Virus record (IMG/VR): IMGVR_UViG_3300031951_013921
Location: 1-40,190 of that record
DNA length: 40,190 nucleotides
DNA from: a virus
Strand: one strand, 5' to 3'
In this document: positions 6,192-26,538 of the stretch, one piece after another
Numbering within the stretch: position 1 is the stretch's first letter
Layout: every line of letters begins with the position of its first letter
Made by a program: the position numbers and the translations under genes
Notes under the pieces: model-generated
The model's input: the letters and a program-made list of their open reading frames with translations, nothing else
Database searches by the model: none
What the model was told of the DNA's origin: nothing

Positions 6192-9100
6192 TTATCTATT
6201 GTCTATGTAAATTATTACTTCATTATAGTATTCTAAAAAATGTTCGTTCCATAAGTCCCATTTTATATCAACACCATCGACTGAATTTATTTCGTAGTTA
6301 TTATAATTAATCAATACATTATCTCTAAAATATCTAAACTTTTGATTTAATTCTGGTGTTCCTAAATGCCATTCACCCGATATTAATTTAACATTTTCTT
6401 TGATGAAATCTAAATTTTCCTGACTGAATACATCGTATTCTCCACCCTCACAATCTAACTTTAAGAAATCTATTTTTTTAATATTATATAAATCTACTAA
6501 TTTTTTAAATGTTATTGTTTCCATCATAGTTTCACCACCAAACAATTGGTCGGATTCCACTATGGAATTTTTTGAACCAATACCTTTATTAATTTGTGTT
6601 ACGGGGTGACCTATTGTATTATTTACTAAAGTTTTAAATTCAATTTGACTTGGTTCTAAACAAAAAACATGTTTTGGTTTTTTGTGTAATATTGATTTTG
6701 TAAAAGGACCAACACTTGAACCTATATCCATTACAATATCACCTTCTTTTACTTCAAAGTGTTTTTCATAAATTTTATTATCAAATATCTCATCAGTGAT
6801 TGCTCCCTTATGAAAATCAGCATGCATCATATCTGAGTTATTCATCCACCCCCAATCAAAATCTGATGGAACATTACTTTTACTTTTATTTATAATTTTT
6901 TCAATTTGTTCAATAACCATTTCTGAACCAATCTCTTTAGTACATTCAAATTGTCTTGAAGTACCTTTATGTATAGGACACCAATTCCAATCACCAGCAT
7001 CTAACCTATCCCAATTAAAACATCCGTGACATACATTTTCATTGATAACTCTATAAGTGTCTAATGTTGTTTCAGACCATTTTTCACTAAATCCTGAAAT
7101 TAAAACTACTGGTAATTCACAAGCCCATGCTAACCAAGAAAGACCTGAACCTAAACCAATAAAAAATTCACAAGTTGCTAAATCATCTATAACTTCTTGT
7201 ACTGAACCACCTTTATATAAGGTAACTCCTTTTGGGTAAAAATTATTCATATACCCATCACCCTCTTTTGAGTAAATCATACATTCGTACCCAAGATTAT
7301 TTAGATAATCAACAACTTCTTGCCAACCCTTTTTATTATTCCAATATTTTGATTGCGCGGTAGAATGAAATCCAATACCTACCTTTTTCTTTTTTTCTAC
7401 TTTTGGTAAATTTAATTTTGGTCGTATTTCTTTATATTCTAAACCTAAAATATCAGATGCGGTTTGTTGTAATGGTAATGGTTTGAAATCACGGGGGTGT
7501 TTGTTCAAATCTAATTCACCATCTTCTTTATAAAACCAACCTAAATTATATTGTGCAAAAATATTATAAACAACACTTCCAGGTTCAACAAATTCAATTT
7601 CAGGGTATTGGTCTTTGAATAGATAATTCATGAATGTAGATACAACTACATGACAATTATGTTTTTTTCTAAATTCATCAACATATGGAAACCATGATAA
7701 TGTGTCACCTAAAGATTTTGAACCAAATGAAATAAATACCCGTTTGTTTGTGTAGTCATTACTATTTTGATATATTAATTCATCGTTTTCTCTTACCTCA
7801 ACTCTCCAATTTGAATGGTATTCTTTATTTAATTTAACCCAACTATTAATTGGTATGTTGTTTTCATATGCGACTTGGTTGTTTTCAAAAAACTTTACAT
7901 TCAATTTATTTTCGGTTGAACCGTTAATTTCTAAATATGGATTTACTACATAATGATTAGAAAATGTATAATCATTTTTTATTTGATTATTCACCATAAA
8001 CTCTAAATCTAAAACTTTGAAGTAAAAATCACGTAATGATTTCCCTAAATCAAAAGTTTCATCCAACTTATAGGATTTTCCGTTTTCAATTAATTGTAAT
8101 AGTTTGGTTGTTGATAAATTTATATCATCATTTTCTATTTCAGTTATAAATCCGTCAAACATACCAACATATTGAGGTAAGTTTCTTGCCATTATTTTCA
8201 TTCCATAACTAATGGCTTCCCTTAAAACTAAGGGGTTACATTCGTTAATTGAATTAAACATAAAAACATCACAAGCAATCATAAAATCAGAAACATCATT
8301 TCTTTCAAGCCATACCGTCACATTGGAAGGTAAGTTATCCATAATAGGTTTCCAATAATCTTCAAAATTCGGAGCTTGGTTTCCAATAAAATGAAAATGA
8401 ACGTCCTTATTTTCTTCCCATACTTTTCTTGCAATTTCAACACCCTCACCTTGATTTTTTCCTGAAGTCCAAAGACCAACATTCAACACATGAGTTTTGA
8501 ATGGGTCTATTCCTAACTTTTCTCTTTTTGCTATTTTTTCTATCAAAGGAACTCTAAATTCATTATTATAAATCTGATGTTTTTCTTTAATATCTGAAAC
8601 TAAATCTTCCAAGGGGTAAAGTTGAACCTCTTTATATGATGGTTCGTTTTTAAAAGTTTTTTCTATATGAAATGGTGTTACTAATGAATACGCATCAGGA
8701 TGTAATTTTCTATTGTCAGGACTAAACCAATTATTATGACAAGACTCAACAATTTTCCATGTTCTATCATTCGAATAAATTGTATTTAATAATGATTTTG
8801 AAACTCTATTGAAACTTTCGAATGCTTCACTAATTTCTTCAAAATGAACAATATCTATATTTTTTTCTTTTATAATGTCTATTAATTTTTCTTTCTTTTG
8901 TTCTTGGGTTTCTTCTCCCAAAATACTCAAATTAATAAAATGTTCATCATCCAATAAATTAATAATTTGGTCTCTCTGAACTACATATGTGTGACTAAAC
9001 CTTGAAAACTCAACAACAAAAATTTCAATTTCATCTTTGTATTTTTGTAATTCCTTAATTCTTTTTAATAAAAATTGTGGCATACCTCCTGTTGAAAGGT

Positions 9101-10751
9101 GTGGTGTTACGTATAATAATTTTATCATATTTTGTTTTTTATTTTTATTTAAACTTTGCCAATATGCAAGTTCCATATCATCTTCATAATTTTGGTCTCG
9201 TCCTTCTGAGTCCGAAAAACTCGGTCCTTGTGTAAATAACATCGGGACTGTAATCCCAAAATTAAATTTCTTATGTCTATCATTATGTATAAATCTGTAT
9301 GTGTTACTAGAGCAATCATTTAAAAACATATCAACCGCACACATATAAAATTGACTTGTTGGTGTTAAAAATTCTGTCATAATTGTCATCCAATGCTCCA
9401 CAAAATGTCTTTTGTAAAATAGTGATTGGGTACATAACATCTCTTCAAATGAACCATGAGTTTTACCATTCAATTTAATTTCACTTCTTGGTAATAATTT
9501 AACTCCTAATCCAACAACATCGTAATGATTTACAGTTTCACACCAATTATCAAAAATTTCATTTATTTCATTTTTTGATACTCCATTCATTAATTTAATA
9601 TCATCCTCAAACACAATTACATTTTGTGCGTCAGTTGATAGGAATTTTGTAAATAGATTTACGTATGCGGCATTACAACCCATTTTTGTATATTTTGGGT
9701 CATCTAAAATTACTCCGTCTATAAATTCATAACCTGTAATTTCTAATTCATCAAGTAGTTTGATTACACTTTCTTTTCTATCTGTTCGATGAGGTAAATT
9801 TATTACATAACCTACGTCTGCAATTTTTATATCTTTATAATAAACACCTTTAAGTTTTTCAATCATAGAATCAATAACATTTAATCTTTTTTCTCCATGT
9901 ATAAAGAATAATTCGGCTCTCTTTGATGGAACTAATAACCAATCTTTTATATGTCTTGGTTCACCTGTAAATGTAGTTTTATCATTAATTAAATCAATTG
10001 TTTCTAAACTTCCATTTACATATACACTCGGCAATCCTCTTGAAACTTTGTGTTTCCATAATAAACAATTAACTATTGTCTCTTCGTGATAGGCAGCATA
10101 CTTAACTGTATTTTCTTTGATGATTGGGTTTAAACACATTTCAGTCCATTCGTCGATAAATGGTATTGTGTTTTGACCTGCAAGAAAATAACCTGTTTGT
10201 CTATACCCTGATTGGTATCTAAATGACTGGTTGATATTATATAATTCACAAATGGGGTGTTCTAAAGTTTTGGTTAAATCATTATCAATACCACCAACAC
10301 CGTCCCAATACATAAAATCATACACACCCTTTGTAAAATATGGAACAACCTCATCTTTAGGGTATAAATCAAATATCTTTTCTAAATTTTGTAAACAGAT
10401 TGTGTCGGCATCCAAATAACAAACAACATCAGTAAAATTTTCTAAAACATCTTTAGTTATTGCGGGTCTTTGAATTAAAGTATCGTAAATTGCAATCCTA
10501 TTCCTATCGATATAAAAGTTACCATTACCCTCGACATTAAAAAGTTCTTCATTTTGGTTTCTTATATCACAAATCCATTTTTTAACAAATACGTTTTTTT
10601 CATTTATTTCTTCATGGTGATTTAATAAGTAAACAAATATTGGTAAATCTGAAAAAGACCTGATAGACTTGATTGTTTTTTTTATAATCGGTAAATAATT
10701 TTTATCTCCATATAATAGAAATGACCTATCAAATTTTTTTGTACTATCCAT
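6192..10751 (-). CDS. Giant five-domain glycosyltransferase-methyltransferase (GT8, GT25, GT4, GT9-like, FkbM)
   Basis: 1519 residues, among the largest genes visible. Domains in order: GT8-like, ~1-300 (donor-site DAD at 114-116 in CYLDADT); GT25-like, ~308-515 (start VGYVINLPHRTDRK, FEDD at 381-384); GT4, ~542-890 (GLWTSGKNQG, and the E-x7-E motif Glu837/Glu845 in INECNPLVLREA); a linker, ~925-1000; GT9/heptosyltransferase-like, ~1003-1290 (SLGDTLSW start, GLGSGLSWLA, and a Cys cluster C1241, C1244, C1258, C1270 resembling the metal-binding Cys of autotransporter O-heptosyltransferases); and an FkbM-type methyltransferase, ~1320-1515 (MDIGSSVGPF at 1341-1350, LKLDCEGG at 1430-1437). An internal Met at 542 begins the GT4 domain. 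No stop or frameshift separates the domains. It would build and cap an oligosaccharide, perhaps on a fibre protein. Confidence 0.9.
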   Translation of the reverse strand: MDSTKKFDRSFLLYGDKNYLPIIKKTIKSIRSFSDLPIFVYLLNHHEEINEKNVFVKKWICDIRNQNEELFNVEGNGNFYIDRNRIAIYDTLIQRPAITKDVLENFTDVVCYLDADTICLQNLEKIFDLYPKDEVVPYFTKGVYDFMYWDGVGGIDNDLTKTLEHPICELYNINQSFRYQSGYRQTGYFLAGQNTIPFIDEWTEMCLNPIIKENTVKYAAYHEETIVNCLLWKHKVSRGLPSVYVNGSLETIDLINDKTTFTGEPRHIKDWLLVPSKRAELFFIHGEKRLNVIDSMIEKLKGVYYKDIKIADVGYVINLPHRTDRKESVIKLLDELEITGYEFIDGVILDDPKYTKMGCNAAYVNLFTKFLSTDAQNVIVFEDDIKLMNGVSKNEINEIFDNWCETVNHYDVVGLGVKLLPRSEIKLNGKTHGSFEEMLCTQSLFYKRHFVEHWMTIMTEFLTPTSQFYMCAVDMFLNDCSSNTYRFIHNDRHKKFNFGITVPMLFTQGPSFSDSEGRDQNYEDDMELAYWQSLNKNKKQNMIKLLYVTPHLSTGGMPQFLLKRIKELQKYKDEIEIFVVEFSRFSHTYVVQRDQIINLLDDEHFINLSILGEETQEQKKEKLIDIIKEKNIDIVHFEEISEAFESFNRVSKSLLNTIYSNDRTWKIVESCHNNWFSPDNRKLHPDAYSLVTPFHIEKTFKNEPSYKEVQLYPLEDLVSDIKEKHQIYNNEFRVPLIEKIAKREKLGIDPFKTHVLNVGLWTSGKNQGEGVEIARKVWEENKDVHFHFIGNQAPNFEDYWKPIMDNLPSNVTVWLERNDVSDFMIACDVFMFNSINECNPLVLREAISYGMKIMARNLPQYVGMFDGFITEIENDDINLSTTKLLQLIENGKSYKLDETFDLGKSLRDFYFKVLDLEFMVNNQIKNDYTFSNHYVVNPYLEINGSTENKLNVKFFENNQVAYENNIPINSWVKLNKEYHSNWRVEVRENDELIYQNSNDYTNKRVFISFGSKSLGDTLSWFPYVDEFRKKHNCHVVVSTFMNYLFKDQYPEIEFVEPGSVVYNIFAQYNLGWFYKEDGELDLNKHPRDFKPLPLQQTASDILGLEYKEIRPKLNLPKVEKKKKVGIGFHSTAQSKYWNNKKGWQEVVDYLNNLGYECMIYSKEGDGYMNNFYPKGVTLYKGGSVQEVIDDLATCEFFIGLGSGLSWLAWACELPVVLISGFSEKWSETTLDTYRVINENVCHGCFNWDRLDAGDWNWCPIHKGTSRQFECTKEIGSEMVIEQIEKIINKSKSNVPSDFDWGWMNNSDMMHADFHKGAITDEIFDNKIYEKHFEVKEGDIVMDIGSSVGPFTKSILHKKPKHVFCLEPSQIEFKTLVNNTIGHPVTQINKGIGSKNSIVESDQLFGGETMMETITFKKLVDLYNIKKIDFLKLDCEGGEYDVFSQENLDFIKENVKLISGEWHLGTPELNQKFRYFRDNVLINYNNYEINSVDGVDIKWDLWNEHFLEYYNEVIIYIDNR

Positions 10752-16794: not shown

Positions 16795-17061
16795 ATGGCA
16801 GATTTACAAGAATACGACAACAGAAGATTTATGATTTTTAACGTTAGTGAGTTAAATCAAATTGATTTTAATACTGTGTTAGAAACATCTGCAGAAACCG
16901 TTAGAAAATCAGTTAATCAAACAAAAACATTTGTAAAATGGGATGGTACGATACCAACTTGTGTTAGTAATTTAACAACAAAAGAAGGACCATATACATA
17001 TGAAGAAATATTAACAATTCTAGCAACTTCAGAATGGACTGACCCTAACCCAATGATATAA
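16795..17061 (+). CDS. Small protein of unknown function between fibre genes
   Basis: 88 residues, not recognised. It is acidic and soluble, with a helical N-terminal half and a C-terminal GPYTYEEILTIL segment. It is coupled to the next gene through TAATG. Position between two fibre genes suggests a fibre assembly or chaperone-type role, without direct evidence. Confidence 0.6.
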   Translation: MADLQEYDNRRFMIFNVSELNQIDFNTVLETSAETVRKSVNQTKTFVKWDGTIPTCVSNLTTKEGPYTYEEILTILATSEWTDPNPMI

Positions 17062-17942
17062 TGCCAACATCAAGACCATTCGCATATAATCCTGGTTCAC
17101 AGATAAGTGGAACATTACAATTTGGTAGTGTTGCTGTTGGCACACCAACTTCTGGTGTAACAGGAAATCCAAGATGGTTTAATGGTCCTGACGAAGATTT
17201 AGGTTATGTTATAGCAATTCCGGTATCAGACGGAAATCAACCTGTTCCTGATGGTTCATTTGCATCAATTGGGTTTTTTAGGTCGACAGCTCGTACTGAA
17301 GGGTCATATATTGAAATATCAAAAATTATTTCAATTAATCAAAATTTTACAACAGGTAATGAGGCGTATCTTTGGTTGAGCGGTAATGGATATTGGTCTT
17401 CATGGAATTATACAACTCCTACACCAACTCCAACTGCAACACCTACTCCGACACCTACACCAACGCCAACCGCAACTCCAACACCAACTCCTACACCAAC
17501 ACCTGCAGGTAGTGCGGTCACATTCTCTCAAACATTTACTTCAGGTACTGCTCCAGGTTCAACAATAGAAACAGCATGGACAACATTCAGAGGTCAGTTA
17601 ACGGGCACTTATACCAAATTTGATTTCTTCAGTTCAAACGGACAACCAGGGTATACCGGAATAACGGATTCAGTCAAAGTACAACAACTTGCAAATGCCC
17701 TTAGAACGGGCACAACGGGCATTAGTTTTGTAACAACAATAAGTGGTGTTACTTGGAACGTTGGGTGTTGTGCTTGTAGAGCTGGGGGTGCTTTAAACGG
17801 AGCCGTTGAATTTGCAAACGTTGCTTTATGTGCGGGTAGTAGTACTGCAGCTTTAAGGCCTTGGATTAATAACGCAAACTGGGGTGGTATTGGAAGTACT
17901 GTTGGTGCTGCTACACAAACATTAACTCTTAGATTTTACTAA
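17061..17942 (+). CDS. Thr-Pro stalk fibre protein (second copy type)
   Basis: 293 residues. Residues 1-117 are a beta-rich N-terminal domain, 118-148 a Thr-Pro stalk with occasional Ala, and 150-293 a C-terminal domain rich in Gly, Ser and Thr with a CCACRAG cluster, ending in LTLRFY. The plan (head, Thr-Pro stalk, Cys-containing tip) parallels the protein at 952-1404, although the flanking domains are not obviously homologous. Thr-Pro tracts are the sort of sequence glycosylated and hydroxylated in other organisms. Likely a virion fibre or decoration protein. Confidence 0.7.
   Translation: MPTSRPFAYNPGSQISGTLQFGSVAVGTPTSGVTGNPRWFNGPDEDLGYVIAIPVSDGNQPVPDGSFASIGFFRSTARTEGSYIEISKIISINQNFTTGNEAYLWLSGNGYWSSWNYTTPTPTPTATPTPTPTPTPTATPTPTPTPTPAGSAVTFSQTFTSGTAPGSTIETAWTTFRGQLTGTYTKFDFFSSNGQPGYTGITDSVKVQQLANALRTGTTGISFVTTISGVTWNVGCCACRAGGALNGAVEFANVALCAGSSTAALRPWINNANWGGIGSTVGAATQTLTLRFY
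17412..17504 (+). repeat. (Thr-Pro)n coding repeat, second tract
   Basis: Acn-ccn hexamers with two Thr-Ala interruptions code for the 31-residue stalk. Similar in sequence and codon use to the tract at 1075-1155. Confidence 0.85.
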
Positions 17943-17944
17943 CT

Positions 17945-18079
17945 ATGGTAACTTATGACGTAATAGAAATTCCAACAGGAAACGTAGTGTTTTCAGATTC
18001 AACTTATGAAGATTGTTTAAATTGGATTGAAACGTATGGTGACATACTTAACTACACAATTGTAGAACATCAGGTTTAA
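17945..18079 (+). CDS. Small unknown protein, 44 residues
   Basis: ATG at 17945, 2 nt after the stop of the Thr-Pro fibre gene, and TAA at 18077-18079. The product begins MVTYDVIEIPTGNVVF and ends YTIVEHQV: a short beta-alpha-beta-like protein with no signal peptide. It overlaps the 3' end of the convergent minus-strand gene by 32 nt. The close spacing to the upstream gene supports it being real; the function is unknown. Confidence 0.5.
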   Translation: MVTYDVIEIPTGNVVFSDSTYEDCLNWIETYGDILNYTIVEHQV

Positions 18080-18548
18080 AAAACACTCTTTCTTTACTAC
18101 CAACCATTTGTTTATACCATAAACCTTTATTATCCATCCATACGTATGGGTCATTAGGGTTTTCAGTCCAACCGTGTTTTGAATAATACTCAGAATCTTT
18201 ACGTAAAAGATTTGCTCTATGAGAAGAGTGAAATTCTTCGGTACCTAACCAATGAGGTAAAACAAACTCACCTTCAATATGTTCGTGAACCATTGTGTTT
18301 TTGAAACCACGTTCAACCCACACATCAATACTATCGTTGTAGTATTGTTTAAGAGCATTTACATAGTCTTTCCACATAACAGAACAAGGGTGATTTAACC
18401 AACCCTTATATGGTTTACCATCTTTACGGGTACGACCTGTGATTGCAGATATGATTTGATATGCCTCCACACGCTGTTTACCAAGACGTTTGTTGTCTAA
18501 ACTTTCTAATGATTTTCTAAAATCTGTGTATGGAAGGAACGTTTGCAT
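18048..18548 (-). CDS. Pyrimidine-dimer DNA glycosylase-like protein (MSMEG_6728-type)
   Basis: 166 residues from the Met in MQTFLPYTDF. The open frame extends upstream but that extension reads as intergenic/antisense sequence, and the promoter at 18582-18589 lies inside it. The N-terminal pattern MQTFLPYxDFxxSxxxLDNKRLGKQRVEA, then GWLNHPCSVMW, is characteristic of a family annotated as pyrimidine dimer glycosylase / MSMEG_6728 family in phages and bacteria. Members are proposed to incise UV-damaged DNA; direct proof for this subgroup is limited. It would help the phage survive sunlight damage. It has its own host-type -7 box. Confidence 0.75.
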   Translation of the reverse strand: MQTFLPYTDFRKSLESLDNKRLGKQRVEAYQIISAITGRTRKDGKPYKGWLNHPCSVMWKDYVNALKQYYNDSIDVWVERGFKNTMVHEHIEGEFVLPHWLGTEEFHSSHRANLLRKDSEYYSKHGWTENPNDPYVWMDNKGLWYKQMVGSKERVFFKPDVLQLCS

Positions 18549-18566
18549 GATTTTTTTTTGTATTAC

Positions 18567-18578
18567 GATATATTTATA
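18567..18578 (+). promoter_or_regulatory. GATATATTTATA element before gene at 18619
   Basis: Matches the recurrent plus-strand element (see findings); 40 nt upstream of the ATG, a good distance for a promoter -7/-10 box. Confidence 0.45.
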
Positions 18579-18581
18579 AAA

Positions 18582-18589
18582 CAAAGATA
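18582..18589 (-). promoter_or_regulatory. Host-type -7 box TATCTTTG for the glycosylase-like gene
   Basis: The minus strand reads TATCTTTG, matching the Bacteroidetes -7 consensus TAnnTTTG, 33 nt from the ATG at 18548. No clear -33 TTG is seen. Confidence 0.55.
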
Positions 18590-18618
18590 ATAAAAAAATT
18601 AAAATAATTAAAAAAATT

Positions 18619-19065
18619 ATGAAAAGAATTGTAAGATTAACAGAATCTGATTTAGCTCGTATCGTAAGAAGAGTTATTGCTGAAGATGCTACTGCAGCAA
18701 CCGCAGCAAGTCCAAAAAAAATTACAAAAGATTTTACCGTTACAGGTGATGAGTCCTTACACTTGAAAATCAGCTCTAAAGTTGGTGGTATGGCTAATAA
18801 ATTGGCAGGTAATCCGAACGTTGTTGAGTTTGATGCATTATTAAAGTATTCTAGCAAACCGGCATATGATGGAAGCTTCGACCAAAAAAATGCAGGAAGA
18901 GTGATTCCAGTTAAAGGTTATTTTGGTTGTAATAGTGGTAAATTGACTGCTAAGGACCCATCTACAGGAAAAGTTGTAGAATTTTTTGATAACTCAATGA
19001 GTACTTCAATGATGGCATTCGAAGATTTCTTACTTGAAACAGGTCTTTGTGCTAGCATCTCATAA
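18619..19065 (+). CDS. Unknown protein with N-terminal 'RLTESDLxRIVRRVI' tag-like segment
   Basis: 148 residues. The N-terminal 22 residues form an amphipathic basic helix (MKRIVRLTESDLARIVRRVI) ending in the motif IAE before Asp23. Similar openings occur on otherwise unrelated phage proteins as I recall them from this phage group. IAE matches the (I/L)xE cleavage rule of T4 prohead protease gp21, so this may be a capsid-targeting peptide removed on head maturation. The rest (from ~33) is a small beta-rich domain with two Cys (about 101 and 146), unrecognised. A bidirectional terminator follows. Confidence 0.65.
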   Translation: MKRIVRLTESDLARIVRRVIAEDATAATAASPKKITKDFTVTGDESLHLKISSKVGGMANKLAGNPNVVEFDALLKYSSKPAYDGSFDQKNAGRVIPVKGYFGCNSGKLTAKDPSTGKVVEFFDNSMSTSMMAFEDFLLETGLCASIS

Positions 19066-19775: not shown

Positions 19776-19807
19776 AAAAAATCCCATCATAATAAAATGA
19801 TGGGATT
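19776..19807 (-). terminator. Rho-independent terminator of the tmRNA gene
   Basis: The minus strand reads AATCCCATCAT, a 6-nt loop, ATGATGGGATT and then T's (A's at 19776-19780 on plus). The 11-bp stem begins 4 nt past the tmRNA CCA end. Confidence 0.85.
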
Positions 19808-19810
19808 AAA

Positions 19811-20209
19811 TGGTGGAGGTGGAGGGACTCGAACCCTCGTCCAGTCTATCCTGTCAGATAAGGACTACACGTTTAGGTCAAGGTTTTTCATACCTTCCGA
19901 AATATCTAAGTTCTCACACCGCTCAGCAACGGTGGTAGTTCTTTAGGGGAACCACACCCTTTTTGTTTTCTTTTAGAGTAAAAACCAACTCATCTGCGAC
20001 TTCTGTTGCTAGGTTATATGTCTGACCGACCCCCCGTTTCCGTGCTTATATTAAGCTACAGTAACTTGCTCAGTTGCAATTAAACCAACCACTGAAAGGT
20101 TATCAAGTACGTTGCCGTATAAAAATCGAATCAGTTTTTAAAGAGATTAACTCAGTCCCTACGTGCCCTTATTCCTCAGCCAATACCTGTCAAATCCAAA
20201 AACACCCCC
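19811..20209 (-). ncRNA. ssrA: Transfer-messenger RNA (tmRNA)
   Basis: 399 nt, complete. The 5' end GGGGGTG (20209-20203) pairs over 7 bp, with one G-U, with CACCTCC just before the encoded ACCA 3' end at 19814-19811. The T arm GAGGG-TTCGAGT-CCCTC is perfect, and the 5' part TTTTTGGATTTGACAGG matches the conserved tmRNA start (GGAUUCGAC-like). An internal reading frame ends in TAA at 20053-20051. tmRNA with SmpB rescues stalled ribosomes and tags the nascent chain for proteolysis. No smpB is seen in this window, so host SmpB would be used unless it lies elsewhere. It has its own promoter and terminator. Confidence 0.95.
20051..20116 (-). other. tmRNA tag-peptide reading frame
   Basis: Resume codon GGC at 20116-20114 is nucleotide 94 of the tmRNA, close to position 90 in E. 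coli. The preceding TTATAC resembles E. coli TTAGTC, with A at -4. The frame encodes a 21-residue tag beginning GNVLDNL and ending ATEQVTVA, then TAA. Bacteroidetes tags usually begin with G but are about 9-10 residues ending in LAA. A later resume at GCA (20077-20075) would give ATEQVTVA; TTAATT before it also has A at -4. Confidence 0.7.
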
Positions 20210-20232: not shown

Positions 20233-20263
20233 CAAATATAATACAAAGATTTGTATTAAACAA
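20233..20263 (-). promoter_or_regulatory. tmRNA promoter, Bacteroidetes type
   Basis: The minus strand has TATATTTG (20240-20233) and an upstream TTG (20263-20261) 20 nt away, matching -7 TAnnTTTG and -33 TTG. Transcription would begin around 20226-20228, leaving a leader of about 18 nt for 5' processing. Confidence 0.65.
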
Positions 20264-23965: not shown

Positions 23966-26002
23966 TTATTTCTTTCTTTTTGTTGGTTTTTTTATTTTAA
24001 CGTCAGTTTTCTTTTCCTTTTCGTTATACGTTAAAATAAATTTAGAACCTTTTTCAGGATTATCAGTTAAAATTTTTTCTGTGATTGCATCATCCACCCA
24101 CTTCTGAACCGTTCTTTTTAGAATACGTGCCCCAAATCTTGTATCAGTACCAACCTCAGTTAAATGTTTTTTCAAAGTACCATCAACCTCAACTGTGTAT
24201 TCTAATTTTTCAATTCTTTCATAGAATTTATTTAACTCTAAATCAACAATCTTTAATAAATCATCTTGGTTTAAATCTTTGAAGTATACGATGTCATCAA
24301 AACGGTTGATGAATTCAGGTGCAAACTTTTTGAACAATTCTTTTTCTAACAAAGATTTAATTTCCTCGTCTTTTCTTTCGGTTTTTGTTGATGTTGAAAA
24401 CCCAACTCCTGTACCAAAATCCTGAACTACTTTTGTACCTACGTTTGATGTCATTAAAATGATACAATTTTTGAAATTAATTTTTCTTCCATGACCATCA
24501 GTCAACATACCTTCATCTAACATTTGTAAAAATACATTAAAGATTTCAGGGTGTGCTTTTTCAATCTCATCTAATAAAATTACAGAGTAAGGTTTGTTTT
24601 TTATTTTGTTTAAGAAAGGTGAACCTTCTTCATAACCAACATAACCTGGTGACGTTCCTGTTAATTTTGATGTTGAAATTTTGTCAGAAAACTCACTCAT
24701 GTCTAATCTGATAAGTGCGTCCTCACTATTGAACATGTGTTTTGCCAATTGTTTTGCCAACTCAGTTTTACCAACGCCTGAATTACCAATCAACAATCCA
24801 CTAAAGATTGGTTTTTTGGGGTCATTAAGACCGACGCGGTTTCTTTGAATTGCTCTTGCAATTTTTGCCACAGCATCGTCCTGACCGATTACCCTTGTCG
24901 ATAACGTATCTTTTAATGTAATAAGTTGTGAAGTCTCATCTGTAGTAATCTTATTGATTGGAATTTTTGTCATCAAAGAAACTACATCATAAACAACGTC
25001 TTCAGTTACCTCACGACGGTATAAATCTCTATTTTCTTCAAACTTTCGTTTTTCGTTTTCAAGTTCAGCTAAAACCTTTCTTTCTTTATCACGAAGATTT
25101 GCGGCTTCCTCATATTTTTGTTTGTTGATTACGTCTAATTTTTCCTCTTTGATTTTAGCAGCCTCTTTTTTAAGTTCCTCAATAATTTCAGGTAATTTAA
25201 TTTCTACCTGTGAACGTGCACCAACCTCATCAATAATATCAAACGCTTTATCAGGAAACTCACGGTCTGTAATATATCTATCTGCCAATTCAACACATAG
25301 TTTTAGTATATCATCACTATAACTTACTTTGTGGTGGTTTTCATAACGGTCTTTTGAGTTCTGTAGGATTTGTAAAGTTTCTTCTTTAGTTGAAGGGTCT
25401 ACAATTACCTTTTGAAAACGTCTTTCTAATGCTCCGTCCTTTTCAATATTTTTACGATACTCCTCCAATGTGGTTGCACCAATACATTGTAATTCTCCAC
25501 GGGATAATGCTGGTTTGAAGATGTTGGATGCGTCCATAGAACCTGATGAATTACCCGCACCAATCATAGTATGAATTTCATCAATAAAAACAATAATGTC
25601 AGGATGGTCATATAACTCCTCCATAATTACTTTCATTCGTTCTTCAAATTGACCACGATATTTTGTACCAGCAACTACAGATGTCATATCTAAAGAAACT
25701 ATTCTTTTACCCGCCAAATTTTGTGGACAATCACCCTCAAAGATTTTCTTAGCTAATCCTTCCACAATTGCGGTTTTACCACAACCTGGTTCACCAATTA
25801 TAATTGGGTTATTTTTCTTTCTACGAGAAAGGATTTGAGCAATCCTATTAATCTCATCTTCCCTACCAATTACAGGGTCTAATTTACCTTCTTCTGCGGC
25901 TTTGATTAAATCACGAGAAAAGTTATCTAAAACAGGTGTTTTTGATGAGCTATCTTGTGTTTTGTTTTTTGGTTTTTCGTTTCCGTCTGCTGAGTCAATC
26001 AT
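23966..26002 (-). CDS. clpC: ClpC-type AAA+ unfoldase lacking the N domain
   Basis: 678 residues with two AAA+ modules. D1 has Walker A GEPGCGKT (70-77), Walker B VFIDEIH (138-144) and Arg fingers R194/R195. D2 has Walker A GNSGVGKT (406-413) and Walker B LLDEIE (476-481). Between them (~285-325) is a short UVR-like middle region ([20 protein letters not shown]), the ClpC rather than ClpB arrangement. V533-G534-F535 sits where ClpC/ClpA/ClpX carry the tripeptide that docks on ClpP, so the protein should feed a peptidase. The usual ~140-residue Clp N domain is missing and replaced by ~25 polar residues; adaptor use must therefore differ. No clpP is seen in this window, so host ClpP is the likely partner. 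Confidence 0.92.
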
Positions 26003-26175: not shown

Positions 26176-26538
26176 ATGATTAACTGGAGAGAATTTGATG
26201 AAATGTTTGATAAAATGTTTTCTATGAGGTCAGATTTTTTTAACGACAAGAGTTGGAATTACAAAACCTATAAATCACCTGATGGAAAATATTCATACAC
26301 ATACATGTCAAAAGGGTTTCAACCAACAGATGAATTAGATGAATTAAAAAATAAATTAGATGTTGCTGTTGAAGAACAAAATTTTGAGGAAGCCGTTAAG
26401 TTAAGAGACCAAATTAAGAGTTTAGAAAAAAACAAAGAAAAGATTTCGGAGTTACAAACTAAATTAGATGAATGTATTAAAAAACAAGATTTTGAAAAGG
26501 CGATTGAATATCGAGATAAAATAAAGGCTCTCAAATAA
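26176..26538 (+). CDS. Two-UVR-motif protein, candidate ClpC adaptor
   Basis: 120 residues. The N-terminal ~50 residues are aromatic-rich (MINWREFDEMFDKMF, then a YKSPDGKYSYTYMSKGF strand pair). Residues 53-86 and 92-120 are two UVR-type helical hairpins (LDVAVEEQNFEEAVKLRDQI and LDECIKKQDFEKAIEYRDKI). UVR motifs occur in UvrB/UvrC, in the ClpC middle domain and in the ClpC regulator McsA. The first hairpin closely resembles the segment [20 protein letters not shown] of the phage ClpC encoded divergently 174 nt away, which makes a ClpC-adaptor role likely. No McsA-type zinc Cys pairs are present. It ends in a strong terminator. Confidence 0.75.
   Translation: MINWREFDEMFDKMFSMRSDFFNDKSWNYKTYKSPDGKYSYTYMSKGFQPTDELDELKNKLDVAVEEQNFEEAVKLRDQIKSLEKNKEKISELQTKLDECIKKQDFEKAIEYRDKIKALK

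Follow-up and report, generated by a model that had tools for sequence, protein, structure and literature searches.

A phage-borne tmRNA lineage with a long conserved tag and a possible phage ClpC-like reader

A tmRNA gene and its surroundings

The window analysed here is a stretch of 40,190 nucleotides, positions 1 to 40,190 of IMG/VR virus record IMGVR_UViG_3300031951_013921. It carries a one-piece tmRNA gene with its own flanking signals and, a few kilobases away, genes for a ClpC-like unfoldase and a small UVR-motif protein (Table 1). The preliminary description of this DNA had called the tmRNA complete and proposed a covariance-model search, which bore it out: RF00023 was matched from end to end (20209..19811, minus strand, model positions 1-374) at 102.7 bits, the cut-off being 47, and the G3-U70 pair, CCA, promoter and terminator are all present. 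This is the sole tmRNA match in the window; ARAGORN, run on the same window, missed it.

Table 1. Features of the tmRNA locus and of the nearby ClpC-like gene, in window positions
Feature	Positions	Strand	Basis
One-piece tmRNA gene of 399 nt with encoded CCA and G3-U70	19811..20209	minus	RF00023 full model and sequence
Tag frame from resume codon GGC to stop codon UAA, GNVLDNLSVVGLIATEQVTVA	20051..20116	minus	In-frame conservation among 69 distinct same-length relatives
Promoter, Bacteroidota-type, TTG-N20-TATATTTG	20233..20263	minus, upstream of tmRNA	Sequence
Intrinsic-terminator-like hairpin and T run	19776..19806	minus, downstream of tmRNA	Sequence
Phage ClpC-like unfoldase with two AAA modules and a GVGF ClpP-docking loop, N domain absent	23966..26002	minus	Pfam AAA, AAA_2, ClpB_D2-small
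Small UVR-motif protein, next to ClpC	26176..26538	plus	PF02151, two stretches

In the acceptor stem, GGGGGUG is paired with CACCUCC, the alanine identity pair G3-U70 included; discriminator A and the encoded CCA follow. Of 84 full-length relatives, 83 share this identity pair, and most also encode CCA. The -7 motif TAnnTTTG was found upstream of the tmRNA in 51 of 59 distinct relatives (4.5 in shuffles), and a run of five T residues follows it in 75 of 84. Since both the G3-U70 pair and the promoter motif are kept, the tmRNA appears fit for charging and for transcription by a Bacteroidota polymerase. The host is accordingly predicted, mainly from the promoter type, to belong to the Bacteroidota. 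The terminase of the window phage shares about 27% identity with its counterpart in Flavobacterium phage immuto, in which no tmRNA match was found. Folding of the whole RNA gave a z-score of only -0.6 under a model that excludes pseudoknots.

Several other features of the window and of related tmRNAs were noted. A 269-aa ORF (18051-18857, minus strand) contains a pyrimidine-dimer DNA glycosylase domain (PF03013), while a 1519-aa ORF (6192-10751, minus strand) appears, as read from its sequence, to combine several glycosyltransferase-like parts with a methyltransferase-like end. Two plus-strand ORFs (952-1404 and 17061-17942) contain long Thr-Pro repeats (TPTPTP), near-repeats that code in several frames. 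A T-loop intron is known from the tmRNA of Clostridium botulinum. In about a dozen relatives the T loop of the phage tmRNA is broken by an insertion, which in one of them (L440:12531-12783) is a group I intron (RF00028, 92.7 bits); the others, assigned by sequence likeness to this one, are L093, L099, L104, L136, L140, L145, L153, L161, L184, L186 and L200. The huge phages LR756508 and LR756511 encode, besides a full tmRNA, a short RNA that scores above the tmRNA cut-off and comprises little beyond the tRNA-like domain (LR756508:414804-414915, L337; LR756511:2250-2386, L338); a similar short tmRNA-like RNA has been described in mycobacteriophage DS6A (PMC4131195).

A long tag under selection in a phage tmRNA lineage

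Bacteroidota tags typically have about 9-10 residues and end in LAA. In the window tmRNA, an internal frame without a start codon runs from the resume codon GGC at nt 94 (window 20116-20114) to a UAA stop codon at 20051 and encodes 21 residues that end in QVTVA rather than in the canonical (Y)A-hydrophobic-A-A of ssrA degrons. The resume site, UAUAC-GGC, was placed by analogy with UAGUC-GCA of the E. coli tmRNA, in which A86 sets the frame (PMC2481249). Relatives settle the frame: near pairs among 69 distinct relatives with a 66-nt tag region showed a synonymous to nonsynonymous ratio of 429:226 in the tag frame, versus 142:526 and 145:653 in the other two. The same substitution pattern ruled out an alternative frame starting from GCA (ATYLITFQWLV). 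ARAGORN independently called 21-aa tags in two relatives (L201 and L205). The length, the frame and the VTVA end proposed in the preliminary description were thus right.

Tags were counted in two censuses. The first, based on two IMG/VR pattern scans and on records that hold a related major capsid protein, comprised, among the matches listed, 73 distinct tag genes from 174 loci, many of them near-copies; 69 of these genes had 21 codons, three had 22 and one had 20. The second, made with a profile, yielded 59 distinct tags, 53 of which are 21 aa long. The first census demanded GG[CT][GA]A[CT] at the tag start and the second an A at -4, and those letters are therefore no findings. The final residue is alanine in all but two of the 69 tags, those two ending in serine. 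Observed ends include TVA, VAA, AVA, SVA, VVA and similar; V-x-V-A is found in most of the class and VAA in some members. The long non-LAA tag is thus real and conserved, so that selection acts on the peptide.

In ordinary tmRNAs the tag stop codon sits in the H5 loop, of consensus UUAAU. In the Rfam alignment this loop falls on a UUUAAUU sequence in the middle of the phage tag, the UAA of which is out of frame. Relatives fold a hairpin at this site that is more stable than in synonymous reshuffles (mean z -1.5, 62 of 69 negative, the sequences not being independent of each other). Covariation of this in-tag hairpin was not seen in fixed columns, and its register varies between sequences. An ordinary tag of about 12 codons may have been extended through the hairpin by about 9 codons.

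One of the two IMG/VR scans used a 5' motif of the tRNA-like domain, the other a core motif located just after the tag; each returned at least 119 stretches. The core motif, GTCGG..CATATAAC...G.AACAG, was found in more than 100 viral contigs, and among bacterial and archaeal genomes totalling 257 Gb it matched three stretches, all GC-rich and without tmRNA features, which points to a tmRNA lineage of phages that has a long tag of its own. The 5' motif is blind to the tag, and its 119 matches listed comprised 96 long tags, 6 short tags of the form GEQVE(L/M)AMAA, 10 cut off and 7 without a tag, the latter being mostly not tmRNA. That the window tmRNA belongs to a lineage of phage tmRNAs in which the tag is almost always 21 codons long is well supported. 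BLASTN of two tmRNAs of the lineage against 50,697 phage records found nothing. Searches by tblastn with the 21-aa tag alone and with a Bxz1-type tag were equally blank; since they also missed Momo, which is among the records and carries the latter tag, peptides so short are beyond the reach of this method and the blank is no evidence of absence.

Phage tmRNAs have been thinly described: a 2014 survey reported non-chromosomal ssrA only in eight mycobacteriophages and named two more phages (PMC4131195). Published tags range from 8 to 35 residues (PMC8012679), so that length alone is not new. Like bacterial one-piece tmRNAs (RF00023; E. coli tag ANDENYALAA), the phage RNA matches the model over its full length and has G3-U70 in the acceptor, a T arm, a resume codon with A at -4, a stop codon and a pseudoknot-rich body. 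Unlike them, it has a 21-codon tag with a VTVA end, includes the usual H5-loop stop place inside the tag frame and carries a core motif seen in viral contigs only. The tmRNA of the mycobacteriophage Bxz1 group (Momo, KR080196) is likewise phage-encoded and has a long tag (25 aa, ATDTDATVTDAEIEAFFAEEAAALV), but this tag is unrelated in sequence, the host belongs to another phylum and no ClpC homologue was found in Momo.

Two tag classes and the phage ClpC-like unfoldase

The [VIM]GF loop is the ClpP docking site of unfoldases such as ClpC, the N domain of which is the binding place of ClpC adaptors. All 63 phage homologues examined contain two Walker A motifs and a VGF, IGF or MGF loop and lack the N domain, with only 39-58 residues ahead of the first AAA module. 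The nearest solved structure for the window protein is residues 141-806 of S. aureus ClpC (E 1e-202). Bacterial ClpC (S. aureus, B. subtilis) similarly consists of two AAA modules with a middle domain and a ClpP-docking loop but possesses an N domain; as no Clp_N domain was found in the phage protein, we refer to it as ClpC-like. The neighbouring UVR-motif protein exhibits a weak likeness to the C-terminal part of McsA (NF053706 stayed below its cut-off) and is possibly a partner of ClpC.

Other components of tagging and proteolysis were also sought. SmpB was found in none of 40 IMG/VR phage records, so host SmpB would be needed. ClpX over the cut-off was found in none of 53 records of any tag class, and ClpP is encoded by a minority of both long-tag classes. 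Weak AAA matches in phages with YAxAA and short tags were considered as ClpX and were rejected, as their sequences read as MoxR/VWA-type ATPases. Two phage genomes of more than 630 kb, LR756502 and LR745206 (L327, L328, L381 and L382), encode SmpB, a ClpC-like protein and at least two ClpP genes, with no full tmRNA match.

The ClpC gene itself is split in some relatives, at the Walker A cysteine, by an intein-like sequence (C-VLGDTWIE... to ...VVSHN-C; L439:8001-10496 and L441:8001-10501). The insertion is also found in L442-L444 and L450, and gaps of about 1.6-1.7 kb occur at the same site in G039, G040 and G065. A short N part is separated by stop codons from a C part starting with Met, and the insertion has the look of an intein split in an atypical way.

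A sister class was recognised through two contigs that bear a tmRNA and lack ClpC. Its tags, e.g., DVELSTMTFEDAMAFVGADYAVAA, are 24 aa long, were found in 53 contigs and end in YA(V/L/I)AA, the canonical ssrA degron end. No phage tmRNA lineage whose long tag is almost fixed and comes in two classes of ends was met in the literature searched, a set that mostly lay outside subscription journals. Homologues of the window ClpC were detected in 33 of 35 large records with V-x-V-A tags, versus 1 of 23 with YAxAA tags and none of 4 with short tags, some of these records being near-copies and all of them possibly fragments. The exception (G076) combines a YAVAA tag with ClpC. On a tmRNA tree from which the tag columns were left out, the tag class switches only once or twice; consequently, at most two independent events lie behind the link to ClpC. 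The tmRNA was found 2-6 kb downstream of ClpC, on the same strand, in all 28 ClpC loci for which 7 kb or more of sequence was available behind the gene (counted by hand). Most of these phages keep the order capsid gene, ClpC, tmRNA; as the block is syntenic throughout, the nearness of ClpC and tmRNA is not independent evidence. A tie between the V-x-V-A tag and the phage ClpC, as read from gene content and tag ends, is therefore suggestive only.

Tags of other phages vary as well. LR756511, without a good ClpC match, has an ordinary tag, ANPEFAMAA. LR756508, in which ClpC is present, has an apparent very long tag of about 35 residues ending in PAAV (L332; LR756508:92434-92880), for which ARAGORN proposes another frame. 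Phage G and Momo, both without ClpC, have tags ending in LQVA and ALV, respectively. On the tmRNA tree, similar tags of the SVVGL or METLGL type occur on differing tmRNA backbones, as if phages had swapped the tag region with each other by recombination.

Possible fates of the tagged chains

We propose, with a probability of roughly 0.4, that the window encodes a functional phage tmRNA whose tag is a degron adapted to the N-domain-less phage ClpC docking on ClpP. Host alanyl-tRNA synthetase would charge the tmRNA and host SmpB would load it into stalled ribosomes, where alanine and GNVLDNLSVVGLIATEQVTVA would be added to unfinished chains. The long tag with its V-x-V-A end may then be read by the phage ClpC without an adaptor and the chains threaded into host ClpP, or into phage ClpP in some relatives. 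The rescued chains would thus be cleared during infection by an unfoldase that the phage supplies, while phages of the sister class, without ClpC, would use their ordinary YA(V/L/I)AA end, presumably for host ClpXP. The preliminary description had suggested such re-routing to the phage ClpC; the association of ClpC with the tag class and the docking loop speak for this part of the claim, and the one or two class changes, the synteny and the exception G076 speak against it. Its other suggestion, that the tag makes rescued chains more stable, found nothing in its favour.

The tag may instead be an ordinary ssrA degron whose hydrophobic-Ala end is read by host ClpXP, its length having another cause such as the RNA hairpin and ClpC serving other needs. 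The nearly invariant final alanine (a V-A end may still suit ClpXP), the members ending in VAA and the stable hairpin inside the tag frame all fit this explanation. Yet this class retains its V-T-V-A-type end and its 21-codon length and the sister class its YAxAA end, and the tag class is associated with ClpC, so we consider it somewhat unlikely. A stronger version of the proposal is a private route of rescue and disposal in large Bacteroidota phages, in which phage ClpC would read the 21-residue degron and host ClpXP would recognise it badly if at all; we hold this version to be rather doubtful.

Long tags are known to have changed protease before, which raises the question of another host reader, Lon, FtsH or host ClpC. 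Like the phage tags, that of Mesoplasma florum has a length and a sequence unlike those of most bacterial tags, and its protease changed, to Lon (PMC8138137); E. coli tags too are read by ClpAP and Lon (PMC8012679). The M. florum tmRNA is, however, cellular and belongs to a bacterium without ClpXP, in which Lon is the reader, where phage ClpC would be the reader here. No feature pointing to Lon or FtsH was found and the phages themselves carry ClpC, which makes this explanation quite improbable. Least probable of all is that ribosome release alone matters, as it does for growth of lambda-immP22 in E. coli, which requires release and not correct tagging (PMC2481249), the tag being neutral or stabilising and no mark for destruction, since such strong conservation of residues and length is unexpected for a neutral peptide.

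The phage tmRNAs described here form a lineage that is widespread among viral contigs and was seen in these only; its tag is under clear selection and differs from cellular tags. If the degron is indeed read by the phage ClpC, the two would provide a new pair of degron and unfoldase for laboratory use in bacteria. The lineage also raises a testable question, namely whether phages alter the fate of unfinished proteins during infection by bringing both the mark and its reader.
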